NCBI GenBank assembly: GCA_029582155.1
Contig: CM055895.1
Span: 13,956,787 to 14,020,786, forward strand
Source: Panopea generosa
Lineage: Eukaryota > Mollusca > Bivalvia > Adapedonta > Hiatellidae
Length of the DNA stretch: 64,000 bases
Direction of reading: 5' to 3'
In this document: in pieces, positions 8,999 through 51,112 of the stretch
Layout: every line of letters starts with the position of its first letter
How positions within the stretch are numbered: position 1 is the stretch's first letter
The notes under the pieces: model-generated
Told to the model about the DNA's origin: nothing
The model's database searches: none
Seen by the model: the letters and a program-made list of their open reading frames with translations, nothing else
Made by a program: the position numbers and the translations under genes

Positions 8999-9295
8999 AT
9001 TGATTGAATTGATTGATTGAATATTTAGCATCATTTTTATGCCATCGAGGGCTTACAGACGATCAGTTAACCTAACCACTGTTTCCTGGGATTAACCAGT
9101 ACTTGAGCACACCCCGTCTCCGCAAGTAACTGATAACATTCCCACTTGAATCAGTTGTGAGAGACAAATGATAATGAGACACAGTGTCGTATATCATTTA
9201 AATCATCACGGAGACTGTTGCCGGGCGGGGGATTCGAACTCATGACCCCTGGATTGATAGTCAGATGCGTAACCGACTGAGCTAATCGGGCCTGG
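8999..9295 (-). mobile_element. tRNA-derived SINE, family A (complete, reverse orientation)
   Basis: Read on the - strand it starts CCAGGCCCGATTAGCTCAGT (A-box region), then has GAGTTCGAATCCC (B box), a body with TGTCTCATTATCA and ATCCCAGGAAACAGTGGTTA, and a 3' tail of ATTCAATCAATC repeats. These are the hallmarks of a Pol III SINE with a tRNA-like head and a short-repeat tail. Related copies are at 18241, 27203, 28961, 32624 and 44669. Confidence 0.9.
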
Positions 9296-12012: not shown

Positions 12013-12050
12013 AAAGGGCTAGGTTCACGAGTAGCCAAAATCGGCCCAAT
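12013..12050 (+). repeat. Left terminal inverted repeat of the 5.6-kb transposon
   Basis: 38 bp beginning AAAGGGCTAGGTTCACGAG and ending AAAATCGGCCCAAT, identical in reverse complement to 17557-17594. The similarity stops abruptly at both sides, as expected for a transposon end. Confidence 0.95.
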
Positions 12051-13924
12051 CTCAAAAATTGATAAGATTATATGTATGGAATCTTGAAACAATTTATTTT
12101 TTGTATTTGGTACTGTTTTTTTATATAACATAATATTATGTAAACACTGTTAATTTTAATACATGGTGTCGAAGGAGAAAACACGTTATTTTTGGCGACG
12201 TACGCAAAATGACGTCGTGAACGGCCGTGATATTGGCGTTCAGTTAATTTTCGTTTGGATTTTTTTTATTTCGTTGTTTTGATTTCGATGACATATCCGT
12301 GTTTCATAACCAATTTTAGTGAAAAATCAATATTTCGGCCCATTAAAATCGCGTGTTTATGTTACATAGCGTGTTCTAATTATTAACCTCTACCTCGCAA
12401 CACGGGGTAATCAAGGTGTGTATTAGTGTGCACCTTTTGGTGAGGACGTGTAATAAAGTCGTAACCGCAAATTCACTCGTTGGATAAAAGTTTCCTCATG
12501 CTTGATAAAAGATCGCTTGAAAGGAAATATGTTTTTCTGAGGTTGAATGTACCGCCTGTTCACTTATTGAATTTGGCATGTTCATCTAAGGAACAGTCTA
12601 TTTTTAGCAACTTACACAGTGACGAAAAATGTATACAAGATAATACATGACCTCTGACATTGACACGCATTAAACAGAGACAGCTGATTTTCTAGTACGT
12701 TTTACTAAATTATATAATTTAATACTGTACGAATTATATACACACATTGTGACTGTCCTTTAGTAATCACCTGACACTCATGTATAATCAGAGTATATTC
12801 GTAAATTATGTCCGGTGTCCGAACGCTAAACGTGATATTACTGTTGACAAACCTATACCAATACGTTATTAATACGGCATCATATCGCATTCGCGAATGT
12901 TGTACGGAGAAGCCATTTTAATCGCCCAACACATTTGTGAAGATTGACGAGTGACAAGGAAAATACCAGTGACTTAATTACATGTTTTTATGTCTCTGAC
13001 AAAACGCATTCCATTAAATGAAAAGGCTAACTGACGGATATTAAGAAACAACACAAATGTCATTTGACTTTGCTCAGACGTTTATATTATAGCATGAATC
13101 ACTCTGAATGTATCTGATATTGCATATATATACTAGTTTTAAATATTCGAAAACAACACGCTATAACAACACTTCAACACAATAAACAAACAATATGTTA
13201 TGCAGTTATCACAAAATAGTGAAACAAACTTGTAGATGAAAAGAAATGCATTGCTGGGAAGCCATTCAGGTATTCCGTATAATCCATGTATATTTAACGG
13301 AGTTCTTCCACACACAATAAAACTAGCATTTCCTGTTTAAAATATATCCATTATAAAATTATACTGCCGTGGTGACGAGTGACGGCAAGTCCCATAACTT
13401 CACTGTCATTTTAGTAATATAATTGTAACGGCCGCATGGTATCAACTTATTAAAACTATACCGTTTTTACACACCCATTTACAAAAACGATGTCTAATAT
13501 TGCATTCTTTCTCTTGCACGCTTTACACAGCACAAATGTAGCAAAATAATTAAGTATATGCATATTCATACATATTTATGGAATGCGAACAGTCAAACCT
13601 TTCTTAAGAAACCAATCAAGGGAAGCAGCAAAAGTGGCATTTAAAGACAGGTTGTTGCTTAATATAGGTAAATATAGTTACTCTGAAAGCATATGAATGA
13701 AAAACAGCAATTATGGCTGTTTAACACAAGTGGTTGCTTAATAGAGATGACCGCTTATACAGGTTTTGCTGTTTTTGTCCAAAAGCCGACAACAAATATT
13801 TACAGATCAAAAGGGTGGTAATTGAGTGATTTTATTTCAGATAAATAGCACGTTATATACGTTTGTTACAAACAACTTCGATTCCAGAGTCATACTTATT
13901 TAGAGATCCTAACAACACTGTCAG
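12051..13924. other. 3' non-coding region of the transposon
   Basis: Lies downstream of the transposase stop codon (in - orientation) to the left TIR. CRE-like TGACGTCG occurs near 12210-12217 and CpG is more frequent than in the surrounding intron. The segment 13600-13765 resembles a dispersed repeat at 33560-33710. No second gene, such as the Myb/MADF gene of classical Harbinger elements, is seen. Confidence 0.6.
13600..13765. repeat. Dispersed repeat segment shared with 33560-33710
   Basis: The two regions share, in order, ACAGGTTGTTG, CTCTGAAAGCA or its variant, TGGCTGTTT, ACAAGTG, TTGCTTAATAGA and ACAGGTTT. One copy is inside the DNA transposon, so either the transposon captured it or both loci derive from transposon fragments. 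Confidence 0.5.
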
Positions 13925-14656
13925 TTAGTCTGAGTCACAAGCTTCGCTGCCGGAATCCGAAGCATCAATCGCTTCCGGTATATTGCTTGCATCAAGCAAG
14001 TTCTCGCCCCAATTGCGAACACCAAATCCTCTCGTATCAACATACCGGTATCTGGCATATCCGAGATACCATATAATTGACGCAATATGTGAACATACTC
14101 CCACTACGCGACTACCAGCCCTGCATTTACAATACCACGCTGTCACTTCAGTTGGGTCGAACCTTAACCACAAAACGTACTGTTTAGCCGAAACATGACG
14201 ACTCTGAAGTCGAACACGTATCAGATCACTCTTTTCTGTGTGTATTTGAATATTGCAGTTCCCATCTAAATGTTCCTGCACATAACTTGAACTTAACTTA
14301 AGCTGATACACGCCACAGGTGAGAGAACGTAATTGATCCTCGCTTAATCTCGGGAAGTGATCAAGGTCTACTTCACTTACTGCTTTCCATATTGTCGACC
14401 GTCTTTCAAGATTTCGGTCTTCGATTTCGGATTTCAAGACATTTACTTGCTTTGACATTTTTAACATATGTGCTGCTATCTGTTTGTCTTCATCCGCATT
14501 ATCTGGACAACACAGAGATGATAAGTATTTGTTTGAGATGGCACACACTATTTTAACATAATCACCAATGTAAGGAACTTGATTTGTTGGTAGAACCCTG
14601 TCTAGGTATTTCCAACGTTTTATTCTGGCGTTTGCAGACTCGACAACCCAGCGTAT
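13925..14656 (-). CDS. Transposase exon 2: catalytic Glu and SWIM-type zinc finger
   Basis: The exon begins after an acceptor (TTTTCAATAG in - orientation) at 14656, in phase 0, and runs 243 codons to a stop at 13925. It opens IRWVVESANARIKRW; the Glu (residue 465 of the joined protein) is the expected third acidic residue of the DDE triad, in the usual R..VE.....RLK context of DDE_Tnp_4 proteins. Towards the C-terminus WYCKCRAGSRVVGVCSHI gives Cys635-x-Cys637 ... Cys647-x-His649, a SWIM zinc finger, which in other proteins binds DNA or protein. The tail is acidic (DASDSGSEACDSD). No stops or frameshifts are present. Confidence 0.9.
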   Translation of the reverse strand: MRWVVESANARIKRWKYLDRVLPTNQVPYIGDYVKIVCAISNKYLSSLCCPDNADEDKQIAAHMLKMSKQVNVLKSEIEDRNLERRSTIWKAVSEVDLDHFPRLSEDQLRSLTCGVYQLKLSSSYVQEHLDGNCNIQIHTEKSDLIRVRLQSRHVSAKQYVLWLRFDPTEVTAWYCKCRAGSRVVGVCSHIASIIWYLGYARYRYVDTRGFGVRNWGENLLDASNIPEAIDASDSGSEACDSD

Positions 14657-15128
14657 CTATTGAAAATAAACCGAAAACAACATCAATCGTTGTACAAGTC
14701 ATTTAAGTACAAATATATATATATTTTCAATTAAAGGGTTTTGCGACAATGTTAAAATCGACATTATATTATATAGATACATGTAAATAATTTTCAGTGG
14801 GGACATTGAAATAATATGACAATTGCCGTGCATCCCATTGATACGAATTATAATACGAATAAATACATATATAAAGTTACATTATCCTTATTAATAATAT
14901 ACCGAACAGGATGAATTGTTGCTCAACACCATGCATCATGGGCGTAAGAGTGTTTCAATTATTGGGGGTTGGGGGAAGTGGGGGCAGGCTGAGGAGATAG
15001 TAAAATATTGAGATAGAGGCAAAGTATATGCTGGCCCCTACAACCTAAACAAACCCCCACCCCCGGCCCCCGACTCCTACGTCTATGTGTATACATTTGA
15101 ATACAAATATGTAGCCTGTCAATCTTAC

Positions 15129-16505
15129 CTTTGTAACTAATCTGCTGGAGTTTGCGTCTTCAGTTGGCATCTGCTTCTGTCCCTTGGTCATAAACGATGG
15201 CATTTCGGCTTTTATTCCAAGGTTCGCCAACAATTCTACAGCATCTCGAAATCCCCTGTCAACTATAAATACATCTTCGGGCTGTATGTATGATTTAATA
15301 TCTTCAATATTTGTCATGAGCATGTGGTTTAGTATTCTAGCATCGTTGCTTTTTGAGTCCGATAGATATGGACCTACAATTGTTACAAAATATCCTGTAG
15401 TCGACACCACTACCATTGGCTTTACAAGTGGTCTGCCCTTATGCATACTGTATGACCTTCGCTGGAAAAGGAAATTGTTGCTTTTCTGTATATATATATA
15501 AGTACCGTCTAACAAAAGAATTAATTTTGCAGCTTCACCGGATTCATCGGTCCCAAACAATGACTGTGCTAGTGGGCGTGTGTGGGTATTTATTAAGACT
15601 TCCCTTGCAATGTGATGAAGTCCCAAGTGTTTGGGTACGAATGTTTTCATAAGGATCTGTCGGACAGATGTGATGGCCCTCCTTATACTAGACTTTGATA
15701 TACCGAATAGTGTCCCTATTAATTTGTTTGACATCCCCGACTTCAGTTTTAAAAGGAATATACCAACTGTAGTACGAATACTTCTGGAAGGCGTGTTACG
15801 TATGTGTCCATCTATCAATGTACAAAGATCATCAAAATCCTCTCTTTTCAAACCTGTCGTTTCGTTATATTCTGTATCATTGAGAGAATCAAAATTGAAT
15901 CTATTATTTGTCCGTAGGCACGTGTTCCTCATGCTGGATAAAAGATCCAATATCATACTTCTGTTGAGATACGTTGTAGCAAGCGTCGGCATATCTTTTA
16001 GAGCTGCAGGCAACAACTTCTGGTCTTGGATGTGCACCGGACAGCATCTAGATCCAGCAGCAATTATCACATTACTTTCCAAAAACGCAGCAAATCTTGC
16101 ATCTGATGCTATGACAACTAGTTTTGGGCCAGGTCGCTTACAAATGAAACACCTAGAGTGGGATTTTGGCGTTGATGGAATATTCATTGCTATCGACGGT
16201 GGGCTGGCCATTTGAGCTGACCTTTGCTGCTGTCGAACTGTTTGTTCCGGTACATAGTCTGGATCCGTTTGTTCAGTAAGGTCATTGCCGTGCTGCAAAT
16301 TGGAATTTAGTTTAACGGTCTTCGTTTCTGCAATGTAGTATTTGTGTCTGCAGGTATTACACAATACGTCCCTATCTGATGCAGTTATTAAAAACTTCTT
16401 GGCTAGGAAAGATTTGAACGACCCATTCATTGGTCGTCTGTTTTTGGGGTTTGTTCTTTTGCTGCACAAAATGCAGTTGTATGCTTTTTTGTTCCCCTCG
16501 GGCAT
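15129..16505 (-). CDS. Transposase exon 1: zinc-binding N-terminus, HTH and first two catalytic Asp
   Basis: 459 codons from an ATG at 16505 (MPEGNKKAYNCILC) to a donor AAG|GTAAGA, ending phase 0. Visible features: Cys11/Cys14 ... Cys49/Cys52; a second cluster Cys119/Cys122 ... Cys154/155 and His158; a helix-turn-helix-like segment at about 245-283 (LKSGMSNKLIGTLFGISKSS); catalytic Asp333 in LLLDGTYIYI and Asp416 in FIVDRGFRDA. With Glu465 in exon 2 this forms a complete DDE set. The start is preceded by an acceptor-like TTTTTCTTTCAG, so a non-coding 5' exon is likely; a candidate ends at a GTAATT donor near 16965. The reaction would be cut-and-paste transposition of elements carrying the 38-bp TIR. 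The protein could alternatively be domesticated, but the surrounding identical TIRs argue for an ordinary young transposon. Confidence 0.92.
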
Positions 16506-16535
16506 CCTGAAAGAAAAAAAAATTGTCAGTGACGG

Positions 16536-16602
16536 GATTCGATCTTGAGACCTTTCAGTCTATAATTAAACGCGGTACCACTACGCTACTGCCGCTTTAG
16601 AA
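16536..16602 (-). repeat. tRNA-like sequence inside the transposon
   Basis: On the - strand it reads GCGGCAGTAGCGTAGTGGTA, where GCGTAGTGGTA resembles an A box, and later AGATCGAATCCCG, a B-box-like T arm. The expected acceptor-stem complement CTGCCGC is not present at the 3' end. It is therefore a SINE head relic or degenerate tRNA rather than a functional tRNA. It lies just upstream of the transposase start. Confidence 0.55.
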
Positions 16603-16605
16603 CAA

Positions 16606-17556
16606 TAAGCAAAAAATCAAGTTATTATTTATAAAAATAGCAAGTAACGAAAAACTAAACTTGTGCTCTGCAGATTGTTTTGTTGTTGTTTTTTTTAGGT
16701 TGGGATTGTTCTTTCCATTAAAAAAAATAATAATATAGAAAACAATGCAATTGCTTGATCAAATCGACGGAATTATACATCGAGCATTCAGATTCGCTCC
16801 CGACCCTATTCGTACTTTTACATCGTTGTATAAATCTATATATGGTTGCAAATGTTGCCTTTTGTACGATTTAAATAAAATATAAAAATAACAAAATAAG
16901 TCTGTATTCACACCATTTTGAATGATTAATAGTATTACACACATAAAATAAAAAAAATTACCTTCTTGAAATGTATGTGGCGAAACAGCATCCAGGTTCC
17001 AACGCAAAACTCCGTTGACGACGAACAGAACATTACATCTTTATATGAAAAAAATGGTCACTTTGAAAGTTTAAAGTTGTGATGCTTGTAAGCATTTATC
17101 AACACTGCCGTATAATAAATTTGGAGTTTTTTAAATAAGAAAATAAAATGTCCTGGAAATAAAACGAACCATATCCGATATATGTGATATCCGAATGAAC
17201 GCAAGAAACAGGCAAGAAACAACCAGGTTCGGGAACGATTTTTTAATTATTTTAATATGAGCGCAAGTGTCGCCATACTAGATATTTCTGTACATGTTTT
17301 GTTTTAATACCAGTAAATGTTGGGGAAAATTTCAAGAATGGCGAAGAATGCGCTCTATGTAAAAAACAATAAATAATGGTTGAATATCCATGAAAATAGC
17401 CAATTTCCTTAAGTATTGGGTATATTTGGGGTTCAATAAAATACAACAACATACAATCAACACAATATATTATATATGGTTGGATCATTGAGGTGTCACA
17501 CAACAACAAACAAGTGGTATATTATAGGTTCCGTTTATTTTATATTTTGTAAATGT
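16606..17556. other. 5' region of the transposon (promoter side of the transposase)
   Basis: AT-rich sequence between the tRNA-like relic and the right TIR. A short possible 5' exon ends near 16965 at AAGAAG|GTAATT in - orientation; joined to the acceptor before 16505 it would leave the ATG at 16505 out of frame with any upstream Met, so it is probably untranslated. Confidence 0.45.
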
Positions 17557-17594
17557 ATTGGGCCGATTTTGGCTACTCGTGAACCTAGCCCTTT
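17557..17594 (-). repeat. Right terminal inverted repeat of the 5.6-kb transposon
   Basis: Exact reverse complement of 12013-12050 over 38 bp. Confidence 0.95.
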
Positions 17595-18240: not shown

Positions 18241-18440
18241 GGCCTGATTAGCTCATTTGGTTACGCGTCTGACTATCAATCCAGTGATCATTAGTTCGAA
18301 TCTTTGCCCGGCAACAGTCTCTTTGATGATCAATATACGACATTGTGTCTCATTATTCGTTTCTCACCGCTGATTCAAATGGGAAAGTTATCAGTTACTT
18401 GTGGAGATGGGGTGTGCTCAATTACTGTTTAATCCCAGGA
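18241..18440 (+). mobile_element. tRNA-derived SINE, family A, 3'-truncated
   Basis: Starts GGCCTGATTAGCTCATTTGG, with TTAGTTCGAATC as B box and the family body through GGTGTGCTCAATTACTGTTTA and AATCCCAGGA. The terminal block and the AATC tail are missing. Confidence 0.85.
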
Positions 18441-24344: not shown

Positions 24345-25857
24345 CTACACTGGCTGGGAAATGCAGCTGCTGTTGTACAAAATGTTTTTGTCATTATTAC
24401 ATGGTCTTAAGCACTACACTGGCCTGGAAATGCAGGTCTCAGCCATTGCTGTACATAGTTTTTGTCATTATTACATGATCTTAAGCACTACACTGGCCTG
24501 GAAATGCAGCTCTCAGCCACTGCTGTTCATAGTTTTTGTCATTATTACATGATCTTAAACACTACACTGGCCTGGAAATGCAGCTCACTGTCACTACTGT
24601 ACATAGTTTTTGTCATTATTACATGATCTTAAGCACTACACTGGCTTGGAAATGCAGGTCTCAGCCATTGCTGTACATAGTTTTTGTCATTATTACATGA
24701 TCTTAAGCACTACACTGGCCTGGAAATGCAGCTCTCAGCCACTGCTGTACATAGTTTTTGTCATTATTACATGATCTTAAGCACTACACTGGCCTGAAAA
24801 TGCAGCTCTCAGCCACTGCTGTACATCGTTTTTGTCATTATTATATGATTTTAAGCACTACACTGGCCTGGAAATGCAGCTCTCAGCCATTGCTGTACAT
24901 AGTTTTTGTCATTATTACATGATCTTCAGCACTACACTGGCCTGGAAACGAGCTCTCAGTTACTGCTGTACATAGTTTTGGTCGTTATTACATGATTTTC
25001 AGCACTATGCTGTGCTGTAAATGCAGCTCTAAGCCACTGCTGTACATAGTTTTTGTCATTATTACATGATCTTCAGCACTACACTGGCCTGGAAACGAGC
25101 TCTCAGCTACTGCTGTACATAGTTTTTGTCGTTATTACATGATTTTCAGCACTATGCTGTGCTGTAAATGCAGCTCTTAGCCACTGCTGTACATAGTTTT
25201 TGTCATTTTTACACAATTTTCATCACTATGCTGTGCTGAAAATGCAGCTCTTAGCCACTGCTGTACATAGTTTTTGTCAGTATTACACAATTTTCAGCGC
25301 TATGCTGTGCTGTAAATGCAGCTCTCAGCCACTGCTGTACATAGTTTTTGTCATTATAACACAATTTTCAGCACTATGCTGTGCTGAAAATGCAGCTCTC
25401 AGCCACTGCTGTACATAGTTTTTGTCATTATAACATGATCTTCAGCACTACACTGGCCTGGAAACAAGCTCTCAGCTACTGCTGTACATAGTTTTTGTCG
25501 TTATTACATGATTTTCAGCACTATGCTGTGCTGAAAATGCAGCTCTCAGCCACTGCTGTACATAGTTTTTGTCATTATTACATGATCTTCAGCACTACAC
25601 TGGCCTGGAAACGAGCTCTCAGCTACTGCTGTACATAGTTTTTGTCGTTATTACATAATTTTCAGCACTATGCTGTGCTGTAAATGCAGCTCTTAGCCAC
25701 TGCTGTACATAGTTTTTGTCAGTATTACACAGTCTTCATCACTTTGCTGTGCTGAAAATGCAGCTCTCAGCCACTGCTGTACATAGTTTTTGTCAGTATT
25801 ACACAATCTTCATCACTTTGCTGTGCTGAAAATGCAGCTCTCAGCAGCTGCTGTACA
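24345..25857. repeat. Minisatellite, unit about 74 bp, about 20 copies, partly dimeric
   Basis: Consensus elements: TTTTTGTCATTATTACATGA, TCTTAAGCACTACACTGGCC, TGGAAATGCAGCTCTCAGCC, ACTGCTGTACATAG. The left part carries the ACACTGGCCTGG type; further right this alternates with an ATGCTGTGCTG type to give a dimer, then the second type dominates. The short frames reading FVIIT..LSTTLAWKC are products of the repeat. Confidence 0.95.
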
Positions 25858-27202: not shown

Positions 27203-27476
27203 GCCAGGCCCGATTAGCTCAGTCAGTTACACGTCTGACTATCAATCCAGGGGTTGTGAGTTTGTATCCCCGCCCAGCAACAGTTTCTGTGATGATTGAT
27301 ATATGACATTGTGTCTCATTATCATTCATCTCTCACCACTGATTAAAGTGGGAAAATTATCAGTTACTTGTGGAGATGGGGTGTGCGTGAGTACTGGTTA
27401 ATCCCAGGAAACAGTGGTTAGGTTATCTGATCGTCTGTTAGCCCTTGGTGGCAAAAAAATGACGCATAATATTCAG

Positions 27477-32875: not shown

Positions 32876-33703
32876 TTGTAAAATTAAGTTATAAAGGATC
32901 TGTTCCATTCATGTTATTCTAGAGGCAGTCACTCAAAATTGTGATCTTTTTAGGTCACCTACGCGCCGAAGACCTGCATCAAGTCTTAAAGAGCATTCAG
33001 GGGTCCTTTTCACAATGTTTATAAAATGATTAATTTTCAAAAAAAAATTTCTCAAGAACTATCCAGTCAAATTTAAACTTATTTTGGATTATCTGTATCA
33101 GTAAGGATTTCAGCTTTGCTTGTTTCACATGACAAACGGGTTCTTCAAAGGGACTTCGGTTTTTATAAAGAAAATATTCTGGAAAATGGAAAAATTCTTG
33201 TTTTTTTCATCCATTTCCGTAAATATTTAATTTAGTTGAGATCTGAAGTATTGTCTGATTTTAGTAAATTAGAACTGGCCCAATTATGAGAATTTGCCTC
33301 CTGCAAAACGGATCAAAAGGGTTTATAATTATTTATAAATAGTGAATCTGTTAAGTTTTTTTGTGTCCTGTGAGTTTCAAGACTACATACTTTAAAAATT
33401 CCATGGGAATTAAAAATAGAAAATTCTCATTTTTGCAAGTCTGTAGCATTCTATAATCCTAGTATATTAGAATGGTCATATAAGGGTTTTTAAACTTTGC
33501 TATAAGGAACCAGGAAATGACTGAAAAGGGATATAATTAATAAATAAAAATGTTTTCTAAAGAACTGGTTGTTTAAATAAGTTCATAGACAGGTTGTTGT
33601 TTAATAATTTGCCCTGAAAGCAGCTTTTAGTATTAGAAATGGGAATAAGCAAATGTGGCTGTTTATGACAAGTGACTGCTTAATAGATGTGACCACTTAC
33701 ACG
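32876..33703. other. RAPGEF intron with dispersed-repeat remnant
   Basis: No gene. The last part (33560-33703) resembles 13600-13765. The start (AAGACCTGCATCAAGTC, TCAAGAACTATCCAGTCAAA) has the style of an element internal unit but no ends were found. Confidence 0.45.
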
Positions 33704-33988
33704 GGTTTGACTTCATATAGACGCCTTGGACACCTCTAATATAGACGCCTTGGACACCTCTAATATAGACGCCTTTGGACACCTCTAATATTGACACCTT
33801 TGGACACCTAATACAGAAGGCTTTTGAATTATTTGGTGAATTATGTTTAAATTAAATGACACAGTGGAAAACAGTGCAGGAAGTGTTCAGATTGCTTGTT
33901 ACGAGCAATCTGAACTCTTCCTGCACTGTTTTCAAAGGCCTTCTGTGATTGGTGTGGGAAAATGCATATCTATGAAGTAAAGGGTTAA
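33704..33988. mobile_element. TTAA foldback MITE, copy 2 (four internal units, left end decayed)
   Basis: Left end GGGTTTGACTTCATATAGAC lacks TTAACCC. It then has four copies of the TATAGACGCCTTGGACACCTCTAA unit instead of two. The central stem GTGCAGGAAGTGTTCAGATT ... AATCTGAACTCTTCCTGCAC is well preserved, and the right end GAAGTAAAGGG-TTAA is intact. Confidence 0.85.
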
Positions 33989-38808: not shown

Positions 38809-38936
38809 GGTGAAAGGTCAAATACTATATGTTTGTGTTAGTTGACTATTTTCATGTCTTAATGACTTTTCACCCCTTAAATGAATTTCAAAACAACTGA
38901 GGACATTTGGTTACATGATGGAGATGTTGTTCTAGT

Positions 38937-40492
38937 ATTGTCCGGATTATCATGTATTCTGTTCTAGTTTTGTCCTGATTATCAGGTATTCTGTTCCAGT
39001 ATTGTCCTGATTATCAGGTATTCTGTTCCAGTATTGTCCTGATTATCATGTATTCTGTTCTAGTTACTGTCCTGATTATTATGTATTCTGTTCTAGTATT
39101 GTCCTGATTATCATGTTTTCTGTTCAAGTATTGTCCTGATTATCATGTATTCCATTCCAGTATTGTCCTGATTATCATGTATTCTGTTCTAGTCTTGTCC
39201 TGATTATCATGTATTCTGTTCCAGAATTGTCCTGATTATCATGTATTCTGTTCTAATTACTGTCCTGATTATTGTGTATTCTGTTCTAGTATTGTCCTGA
39301 ATATCATGTTTTCTGTTCTAGTATTGTCCTGATTATCATGTATTTTATTCCTGTATTGTCCTGATTATCATGTATTCCATTCCAGTATTTTCCAGATTAT
39401 CATGCATTATGTTCCAGTGTTGTCCTGATTATCATGTATTCTGTTCCAGTATTATCCTGATTTTCATGTATTTTGTTCCAGTATTGTCCTGATTATCATG
39501 TCATCTGTTCCAGTATTGTCCTGATTACCATGTATTATGTTCCAGTATTGTCCTGATTATCATGTATTCTGTTTTAATATTGTCCTTATTGTCATGTATT
39601 CTGTTTTAATATTGTCCTGATTATCATGTATTATGTTCCAGTTTTGTTCTGATTATCATGTATTCTGTTCAAATATCCTAATTATCATGTATTCTGATCT
39701 AGTATTGTCCCCATTATCATGTATTCTGTTCGAGTATTGTCCTGATTATCATGTATTCTGTTTTAATATTGTCCTGATTATCATGTATTCTGTTCTAGTT
39801 ATTGTCCTGATTATCATGTATTATGTTCAGTATTGTCTTGGTAATCATGTTTTCTGTTCTAGTATTGTCCTGATTATCATTTATTCTGTTCCAGTATTGT
39901 CCTGATTATCATGTATTCTGTTTTAATATTGTCCTGGTTATCATGTATTCTGTTCTAGTATTGTCCTGATTATCATGTATTCTGTACCAGTATTGTCCTG
40001 ATTATCATGTATTCTGTTTTAATATTGTCCTGATTATCATGTATTCTGGTCTAGTATTGTCCTGATTATCATGTTTTCTGTTCAGTATTGTCCTGGTTAT
40101 CATGTATTCTGTTCTAGTATTGTCCTGATTATCATGTATTCTTTTCCAGTATTGTCCTGATTATCATGTATTCTGTTTTAATATTATCCTGGTTATCATG
40201 TATTCTGTTCTAGTATTGTCCTGATTATCATGTATTCGGTTCAGTATTGTCCTGGTTATCATGTATTCTGTTCTAGTATTGTCCTGATTATCATGTATTA
40301 TGTTCCAGTATTGTCCTGATTATCATGTATTCTGTTTTAATATTGTTCTGATTATCATGTATTCTGTTCTAGTATTGTCCTGATTATCATGTATTCTGTT
40401 CAGTATTGCCCTGGTTATCATGTATTCTGTTCCAGTATTGTCCCCATTATCATGTATTCTGTTCCAGTATTGCCCTGATTATCATCAGTCCT
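38937..40492. repeat. 32-bp tandem repeat, about 48 copies
   Basis: Unit GTTCTAGTATTGTCCTGATT-ATCATGTATTCT, with point variants and occasional 1-2 nt indels (GTTACTGTCC, TTCAGTATTG). Continuous for about 1.55 kb. Open frames inside are repeat artefacts. Confidence 0.96.
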
Positions 40493-41415: not shown

Positions 41416-41989
41416 GTGTGCTTGTCATAAAAGGTGTATACAGTGGTATCTTGTTTTTGTATCTTTGTTACTTTGCATGAAATGCTATATCCCTTGTGGT
41501 GAGAATGATCTGGGATAGATCACTGTAAAGTGAAAGGGGCCATTGTGAAAACAAGTTGCCATTTGTAACATGTGTACTATTGTTGAATGTTATAACCTCA
41601 TGAAGGGGATGTTGTTGTTTTTTTTGGGCTATAGTTTCAATGACTGTGAACTATTATATTTTAGCTGTTTCATTATTGGTAAAACACGTCATGTACTTTA
41701 TGTTTGGATACACTGTCAGACATCAATGTACATTGTAGTAGATGGTCTTGGATTTAAATTTGATAGAAACTCATTGGTTGATTATGAAAATATTCTGGAT
41801 GTTAATGAAATATTTGAAAGATATCCTTTGGTAAAACAGACATGCTGGCATCTTTTCCTTACATAAGAGGATATTTTAAATATCATCTTATGTTTTAAAT
41901 ATCACCTTATGTTTAAAATATCATCTTTAGGTACTGTTAGATATAAAATTAATGATTGGAATAATTTTGCATGATATAAAATTAAGGTG
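41416..41989 (+). other. Intronic spacer with an unassigned 98-codon frame
   Basis: The frame 41570-41866 (MCTIVECYNLMKGMLL...) is longer than most non-repeat frames here and has fairly balanced residues (VDYENILDVNEIFERYPLVK). It has no recognised similarity, and a poly-T run lies within its codons. I see it as probably non-coding. Confidence 0.35.
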
Positions 41990-43866
41990 CTAGCATATTT
42001 CAAGACTTAATTGGATAAACCAGTATAGAAATATGGTGCTGTCAACTTTCAAGACTTAATATGGATATACTAGTATAGAACTATGGTGCTGTCATCTTTC
42101 AAGACTTAATTGGCTATACTAGTATAGAACTTTGGTGCTCACATCTTTAAAGACTTAATTGGATATACAAGTATAGAACTATGGTGCTCTCATCTTTTAT
42201 GACTTAATTGGATATACTAATATAGAACTATGGTGCTCTCATCTTTCATGACTTAATTGGATATACTAATATAGAACTATGGTGCTCTCATCTTTCATGA
42301 CTTAATTGGATATACTAATATATAACTATGGTGCTCTCATCTTTCATGACTTAACTGGATATACTAATATAGAACTATGGTGCTCTCATCTTTCATGACT
42401 TAACTGGATATACTAATATAGAACTATGGTGCTCTCATCTTTCATGACTTAATTGGATATACTAATTTAGAACTATGGTGCTCTCATCTTTCATGACTTA
42501 ACTGGATATACTAATATAGAACTATGGTGCTCTCATCTTTTATGACTTAATTGGATATACTAATATAGAACTATGGTGCTCTCATCTTTCATGACTTAAT
42601 TGTATATACTAATATAGAACTATGGTGCTCTCATCTTTCATGACTTAACTGGATATACTAATATAGAACTATGGTGCTCTCATCTTTCATGACTTAATTG
42701 GATATACTAATTTAGAACTATGGTGCACTCATCTTTCATGACTTAATTGGATATACTAATATAGAACTATGGTGCTCTCATCTTTCATGACTTAATTGGA
42801 TATACTAATATAGAACTATGGTGCTCTCATCTTTCATGACTTAATTGTATATACTAATATAGAACTATGGTGCTCTCATCTTTCATGACTTAACTGGATA
42901 TACTAATATATAACTATGGTGCTCATCTTTCATGACTTAATTGGATATACAAGTATAGAACTATGATGCTCTCATCTTTCATGACTTAATTGGATATACT
43001 AATATAGAACTATGGTGCTCTCATCTTTCATGACTTAACTGGATATACTAATATAGAACTATGGTGCTCTCATCTTTCATGACTTAATTGGATATACTAA
43101 TTTAGAACTATGGTGCACTCATCTTTCATGACTTAATTGGATATACTAATATAGAACTATGGTGCTCTCATCTTTCATGACTTAATTGGATATACTAATA
43201 TAGAACTATGGTGCTCTCATCTTTCATGACTTAATTGTATATACTAATATAGAACTATGGTGCTCTCATCTTTCATGACTTAACTGGATATACTAATATA
43301 TAACTATGGTGCTCATCTTTCATGACTTAATTGGATATACAAGTATAGAACTATGATGCTCTCATCTTTCATGACTTAATTGGATATACTAATATAGAAC
43401 TATGATGCTCTCATCTTTCATGACTTAATTGGATATACTAATATAGAACTATGGTGCTCTCAACTTTCATGACTTAATTGGATATACTAATATAGAACTA
43501 TGGTGCTCTCAACTTTCATGACTTAATTGGATATACTAATATAGAACTATGGTGCTTTCATCTTTCATGACTTAATTGGATATACTAATATAGAACTATG
43601 GTGCTCTCAACTTTCATGACTTAACTGGATATACTAGTATAGAACTATATATGGTGCTCTCAACTTTCATGACTTAATTGGATATACTAATATAGAAATA
43701 TGGTGCTCTCATCTTTTATGACTTATTTGGATATACTAATATAGAACTATGGTGCTCTCAACTTTCATGACTTAATTGGATATACTAATATAGAACTATG
43801 GTGCTCTCATCTTTTATGACTTATTTGGATATACTAATATAGAACTATGGTGCTGTCATCTTTCAA
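41990..43866. repeat. 49-bp satellite-like tandem repeat, about 38 copies, with a 390-bp higher-order duplication
   Basis: Unit ATATAGAACTATGGTGCTCT-CATCTTTCATGACTTAATTG-GATATACTA. Diagnostic variants recur together 390 bp apart: TTTAGAACTATGGTGCACTC at about 42711 and 43101, AATTGTATATAC at about 42843 and 43233, and the 2-nt-short GGTGCTCATC at about 42919 and 43309. This shows a block of eight units duplicated as a whole. Confidence 0.95.
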
Positions 43867-49439: not shown

Positions 49440-51112
49440 ATAATATAAGTCCTAGAACTTTTGTAGGGTTTCGTCATCAACCAGAGGTCTAAGAAATTTT
49501 GTAATGCTCCATCGTCATCTACAGGTTCTAAAACAAAATAAGTGGTAGAACTTTTTTAGGGTTCCATTTCAGCCATAGGTCTTGAAACAACATAAGTCCT
49601 AAAGCTTTTGTAGTGTTCCATCATCAGTTAGGGGTCTTGATACAACATAAGTCATAAAGTTTTTGTAGGGTTCTATCATCAGCTAGGGGTCTTGATACAA
49701 CATAAGTCATAAAGCTTTTGTAGAGTTCCATCATCAGCTAGTAGTCTTGATACAACATAAGTTGTAAAGCTTTTGTAGGGTTCTATCATCAGCTAGGGGT
49801 CTTGATACAACATAAGTCGTAAATATTTTGTAGGGTTCTATCATCAGCTAGTAGTCTTGATACAACATAAGTTGGAAAGCTTTTGTAGGGTTCCATCATC
49901 AGCTAGGGGTCTTGATACAACATAAGTAGTAAACATTTTGTAGGGTTCTATCATCAGCTAGGGTTCTTGATACAACATAAGTTGTAAAACTTTTGTAGGT
50001 TCTATCATCAGCTAGGGGTCTTGATACAACATAAGTAGTAAACATTTTGTAGGGTTCTATCATCAGCTAGTAGTCTTGATACAACATAAGTTGGAAAGCT
50101 TTTGTAGGGTTCCATCATCAGCTAGTGGTCTTGATACAACATAAGTTGGAAAGCTTTTGTAGGGTTCCATCATCAGCTAGGGGTCTTGATACAACATAAG
50201 TTGAAAAGCTTTTGTAGAGTTCCATCATCAGCTAGGGGTCTTGATACAACCTAAGTCGTAAAACATTTGTAGGGTTCCATCATCATTTAGTGGTCTTAAT
50301 ACAACATAAGTCGTAAACATTTTGTAGGCTTCTATAATCAGCTAGGGGTCTTGATACAACATAAGTCGTAAACATTTTGTAGGCTTCTATAATCAGCTAG
50401 GGGTCTTGATACAACCTAAGTTGTAAAACTTTTGTAGAGTTCCATCATCAGCTAGGGGTCTTGATACAACATAAGTCGTAAAGCTTTTGTAGGGTTCCAT
50501 CATCAGTTAGGGGTCTTGATACAACATAAGTAGTAAAGCTTTTGTAGGGTTCTATCAGCTAGGGGTCTTGATACAACATAAGTAGTAAAGCTTTTGTAGG
50601 GTTCTATCATCAGCTAGGGGTCTTGATACAACATAAGTCATAAAGCTTTTGTAGGGTTCCATCATCAGTGAGGGGTCTTGATACAACATAAGTCGTAAAG
50701 CTTTTGTAGGGTTCTATCTTCAGCTAGGGGTCTTGATACAACATAAGTCGTAAAGCTTTTGTAGGGTTCCATCATCAGTTAGGGGTCTTGATACAACATA
50801 AGTAGTAAAGCTTTTGTAGGGTTCTATCAGCTAGGGGTCTTGATACAACATAAGTAGTAAAGCTTTTGTAGGGTTCTATCATCAGCTAGGGGTCTTGATA
50901 CAACATAAGTCATAAAGCTTTTGTAGGGTTCTATCATCAGCTAGGAGTCTTGATACAACATAAGTCGTAAAGCTTTTGTAGGGTTCTATCATCAGCTAGG
51001 GGTCTTGATACAACATAAGTTGGAAAGCTTTTGTAGGGTTCCATCATCAGCTAGGGGTCTTGATACAACATAAGTCGTAGGCTTTTGTAGGGTTCCATCA
51101 TCAGCTAAGGTT
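49440..51112. repeat. 55-bp tandem repeat, about 30 copies, starting about 90 bp after a coding exon
   Basis: Unit TCTTGATACAACATAAGTCG-TAAAGCTTTTGTAGGGTTCT-ATCATCAGCTAGGGG. The first copies are more diverged (CTAGAACTTTTGTAGGGTTT). A shortened unit (GGGTTCTATCAGCTAGGGG, missing 3-4 nt) recurs about 275 bp apart at about 50544 and 50819 with the same neighbours, showing duplication of a five-unit block. Confidence 0.95.

Follow-up and report, generated by a model that had tools for sequence, protein, structure and literature searches.

At positions 12,013 to 17,594 of a 64,000-nucleotide stretch of the Panopea generosa genome (the whole stretch is referred to as the window), an earlier note had described an apparently intact, recently active, intron-split DDE transposon with perfect 38-bp terminal inverted repeats (TIRs), possibly of a little-described lineage. 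This raises the question of where the element ends, how it is inserted in the host DNA and to which kind of transposon it belongs. Positions 12013-12050 and 17557-17594 form an exact 38-bp inverted repeat, and its first 24 bases have no other site in the window with up to 6 mismatches allowed. Further copies of the element were sought across the 39 contigs (1.474 Gb) of the host assembly, as the earlier note had proposed. The 104 matches were read as 27 copies including that of the window, and a 21-mer of the TIR was found at 157 sites genome-wide with at most 3 mismatches, compared to 0 for the reversed control. The 27 copies fetched with their flanks are the better-preserved ones; more copies exist beyond these. 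Twenty-six left and 26 right ends were readable (L030 is without a left end and L034 without a right end). With this many copies, 25 of them carrying both ends, the TIRs are linked and do not represent unlinked repeats.

The junctions are highly uniform. AAA adjoins 25 of the 26 left ends (TAA in L021) and TTT adjoins 25 of the 26 right ends (TAT in L029), compared to a background in the window in which AAA starts at 3.8% and TTT at 4.7% of positions. Outside AAA/TTT, the flanks are unlike between copies. Three filled copies (L018, L027 and L023) were compared with two unfilled paralogs, in which a single uninterrupted AAATTT is present with no gain or loss at the junction. The unfilled counterpart of the L018 site lies in a repeat of the window itself, with a 1-bp indel four bases from the junction, and that of L027 and L023 is the left flank of L019 (AACAAATTTGAC); L023 and L027 occupy, in opposite orientations, the identical AAATTT in two copies of a single repeat. 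The paralog of the L021 site is diverged beyond reading, and the empty site of the window copy itself was not found by flank comparison. As the unfilled paralogs carry one AAATTT, this target is split by the insertion into AAA and TTT, and each TIR proper measures 35 bp, the termini of the element being GGGCTAGG...CCTAGCCC (12016-17591). The 38-bp repeat of the earlier note is therefore exact as a repeat, but its outer 3 bp on each side belong to the host. The comparison with empty sites, suggested at the same time for fixing the target duplication, revealed none. The features of the insertion are the following:

12016 to 17591, minus strand (that of the transposase gene): whole transposon, 5576 bp, delimited by the TIR pair, 26 left and 26 right junctions and the empty-site paralogs
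12016 to 12050, plus strand: left 35-bp TIR, 100% complementary to the right arm
17557 to 17591, minus strand: right 35-bp TIR, complementary to the left arm
12013 to 12015, no strand: host target half-site AAA, outside the element, from the left ends and the AAATTT of other copies' unfilled paralogs
17592 to 17594, no strand: host target half-site TTT, outside the element, from the right ends and the same paralogs
982 to 987, no strand: AAATTT in the window repeat, unfilled counterpart of the L018 insertion site, from flank comparison

The near-invariance of AAA and TTT among the copies could also be taken to mean that the TIRs extend outwards to include these bases and that insertion is non-specific and without duplication. 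This reading is very improbable: the unfilled paralogs themselves contain AAATTT, and L021 and L029 vary precisely at these bases while the GGG/CCC ends are constant.

The transposase gene is carried on the minus strand and is organized as follows:

15129 to 16505, minus strand: coding exon 1, residues 1-459, with two Cys/His clusters, an HTH_Tnp_4-like region (residues 250-288, below cut-off), D333 and D416
14657 to 15128, minus strand: predicted phase-0 GT-AG intron, 472 bp, with splice sites conserved wherever a two-ended copy still has the region (24 of 24)
13925 to 14656, minus strand: coding exon 2, residues 460-702 and stop, with E465 and a SWIM-like C-x-C-x9-C-x-H motif (residues 635-649)
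16507 to 16961, minus strand: possible intron in the 5' UTR (predicted), GT..AG just upstream of the ATG, both dinucleotides being conserved in all 25 two-ended copies

As the earlier note had read it, the spliced frame of 702 aa is open across the intron and the catalytic residues D333, D416 and E465 are all present; the intron (15128-14657) falls between codons 459 and 460. In Pfam searches, DDE_Tnp_4 covers residues 332-501 (E 3.3e-18) and DDE_Tnp_1 also matches (1.6e-8); HTH_Tnp_4 reaches 21.9 bits against a cut-off of 27, and THAP is not called. The SWIM zinc finger has the motif CxCx(n)CxH and is represented in Pfam by the profile PF04434; the motif of the window transposase (C635, C637, C647 and H649) is without a Pfam SWIM call. 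No second large gene is seen between 12016 and 13924, where the largest stop-to-stop frame is 99 aa, and the only further ORFs of at least 100 aa in the element are two antisense to the transposase. No relative was found in viral contigs searched with the exon 1 product, the exon 2 product and the TIR 21-mer, nor in prokaryotic genome contigs searched with the exon 1 product. Sequence searches of the PDB returned nothing meaningful (best E 0.16 and 0.34), and AlphaFold predictions of the two exon products made without relatives gave no usable fold (mean pLDDT 36.6 and 36.0). The scans of the whole window for tRNA and Rfam families were empty.

Two known groups can be weighed against both the junctions and the gene content. 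The likeness to PIF/Harbinger resides in the catalytic domain, as DDE_Tnp_4 is linked to that group. PIF/Harbinger insertions are described with a 3-bp TWA duplication in the available part of PMC4482050; this duplication is absent from our junctions and unfilled paralogs, and a PIF/Harbinger identity is rejected on the junctions. The second group is ISL2EU, for which the same part of PMC4482050 gives TIRs that usually begin with GG, an A|AT|T target with a 2-bp AT duplication and, in most autonomous members, a second ORF with YqaJ. The element begins with GG, encodes a DDE transposase of the same superfamily and has an AT-rich palindromic target of which AATT is the core. However, its flanks are AAA/TTT and not AAT/ATT, the AT duplication is found neither at the junctions nor in the unfilled paralogs, no YqaJ-like second gene is seen among the frames of at least 100 aa, and the transposase is without a Pfam THAP call; that it is an ISL2EU element inserted at A|AT|T with duplication of AT is hardly credible.

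The age and integrity of the family were assessed on the 25 two-ended copies. Their divergence from the window copy ranges from 0.11 to 2.9%, and the spliced frame is open in 16 of them (15 of 702 aa and one of 705 aa). The nine broken frames comprise two with frameshifts, four with stops and three with larger deletions or rearrangements. Coding variants among the copies give a pN/pS of 0.61 and include 8 stop variants, which indicates weak constraint on the exons. The copies also differ by a segment of about 207 bp (202-210 bp):

17203 to 17204, no strand: site of the segment, a subfamily marker, carried by 20 of the 25 two-ended copies and lacking from the other 5

The five copies without it are the window copy, L009, L010, L011 and L033, among which are the copies closest to that of the window, and its absence marks a recent subfamily. 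Combined, the low divergence (0.1-2.9%) and the open frames indicate that amplification was recent, which agrees with the initial description of the element as apparently intact and recently active; the family is young, and its members are probably mobile at present. The conservation of the open frame and of the splice sites between copies might suggest a domesticated host gene. The probability of such a reading is close to nil, as the copies are dispersed and multiple, carry TIRs and have unlike flanks at each place; at the window locus, the host-gene reading is refuted by this copy pattern. Besides, a repeat motif is common to the element and the host: window positions 13589-13777, inside the element, resemble window positions 33587-33712 and the flanks of L020 and L029.

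Searching the host genome at the protein level revealed relatives. A sister family carries an uninterrupted open frame of 704 aa (657 aa from the first ATG) with 46% protein identity to the window transposase. Its two best copies (L038+L036 and L039+L037) are 99% alike, and its TIRs share the outer 9 bp with those of the window element. The three catalytic residues are identical in both proteins, as are C11, C14, C49, C52, C119, C122, C155 and H158 and the four residues of the SWIM-like motif, for which the sister protein scores 12.9 bits with the Pfam SWIM profile against a cut-off of 19.6. At the position of the window intron, the sister gene has none and is read continuously (RLVTK-VRWVVES), which supports the splice predicted in the window element. 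A third family (L081, L082) shows 50-59% identity in longer pieces, with an apparent break in L082 at the intron position of the window transposase. The SWIM-like finger is kept in L081 (CKCRAGERVVGMCSH) and the CxCx9CxH motif also in L083 and L084; L082 is frameshifted inside the motif.

The insertions of the sister family were analyzed at 22 left and 22 right ends, which correspond to the two best copies and 20 further ends per side among the 43 matches listed for each. AAA adjoins 18 of the 22 left ends (the misses being L062, L070, L075 and C19) and TTT adjoins 20 of the 22 right ends (the misses being L042 and C19); several of these ends share flanks through larger duplications, and not all are independent. 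Two comparisons with unfilled paralogs revealed no duplication at the junction; in those of C16, the unfilled sequences deviate from an exact AAATTT, and a few bases left of the junction there is a gap of about 10 bp. The C19 copy (L038/L036, G000:C19:17389112-17394304) has AAATTT on both flanks and not AAA/TTT, which could reflect a 6-bp duplication or an insertion at TTT|AAA within an 18-bp palindrome. Such flanks are not expected from simple insertion between AAA and TTT. The copy L075 also has AAATTT at its left flank, and its right end is absent from the further 601 bp examined. A dispersed repeat of the window (9036-9253, 18280-18440 and 27246-27457) is the landing site of some insertions of the sister family. 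The window also contains long tandem arrays with units of 74, 32, 49 and 55 bp in 20-49 copies each (24384-25857, 38928-40485, 41974-43865 and 49533-51107).

The insertion behaviour of the window element is that of a published group. Spy elements of the PHIS superfamily are described, in the available parts of PMC4482050 and PMC11304231, as inserting at AAATTT without target-site duplication, with a transposase of about 700 aa and a length of 1165-5910 bp. The element resembles them, as far as these parts go, in its insertion at AAA/TTT without duplication, in a single large gene coding for a DDE enzyme of about 700 aa, in its length of 5576 bp, which is within the published range, and in its low-divergence amplification. 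From these descriptions of the target, the missing duplication and the enzyme, the element very likely represents a young autonomous cut-and-paste family of the Spy type. Its behaviour is of an already published kind and it is not a new superfamily. Less usual are its intron and its finger-rich transposase. The two-exon gene and the SWIM-like C-terminal finger have no mention in the available parts of PMC4482050 and PMC11304231. More precisely, SWIM is absent from what is available of PMC4482050, and SWIM, THAP, zinc, intron, exon and HTH from that of the main text of PMC11304231. Among titles of open-licence PMC articles combining SWIM with ISL2EU, DDE_Tnp_4, target site duplication, Spy or PIF-Harbinger, none is about such an architecture.

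This silence would be accounted for if the element did not descend from Spy but belonged to another PHIS lineage, in which joining at AAA|TTT with no duplication arose by convergence. We consider such convergence unlikely: the target, the missing duplication, the single gene and the size of about 700 aa are those published for Spy in the parts cited above, and the silence of two partial texts is no proof that other Spy proteins lack the finger or the intron. The little-described lineage proposed in the earlier note could hold only for the SWIM-like finger, the Cys clusters and the intron; the junctions match published Spy and not an unnamed lineage.

For a family of the Spy type, a mechanism can be proposed on the basis of the ends, the target, the missing duplication, the copy number, the open frames and the low divergence, all of which are read directly in the DNA. 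The spliced 702-aa DDE transposase would recognise the 35-bp TIRs, presumably through the Cys clusters, the HTH and the SWIM-like finger. It would excise the element at its GGG/CCC ends and join it to both strands at the centre of the palindromic AAATTT with no stagger; joining with a 0-bp stagger would leave no target-site duplication. This blunt chemistry is deduced from the insertion products, and splicing of the coding intron and current activity are likewise predicted.

A more speculative extension, to which we give little weight, is that the families form a Spy-type branch rich in zinc fingers (Cys clusters, the SWIM-like finger and an intron in apparently two of the three families) that normally joins with a 0-bp stagger and sometimes with a 6-bp stagger leaving a duplication of AAATTT. 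If this is true, one kind of DDE enzyme would switch its stagger on a palindromic target.

Spy elements catalogued in the available text of PMC11304231 comprise 4 from molluscs and 3 from cnidarians versus 175 from insects and arachnids, and a Spy element is under development there as a gene-transfer tool. The Panopea genome, which carries one very young family whose spliced frames are intact and a sister in which a long frame is open, provides good material for the comparison of such enzymes. Cut-and-paste elements without target duplication are unusual, and both families may serve to study how a DDE transposase can cut without a stagger.
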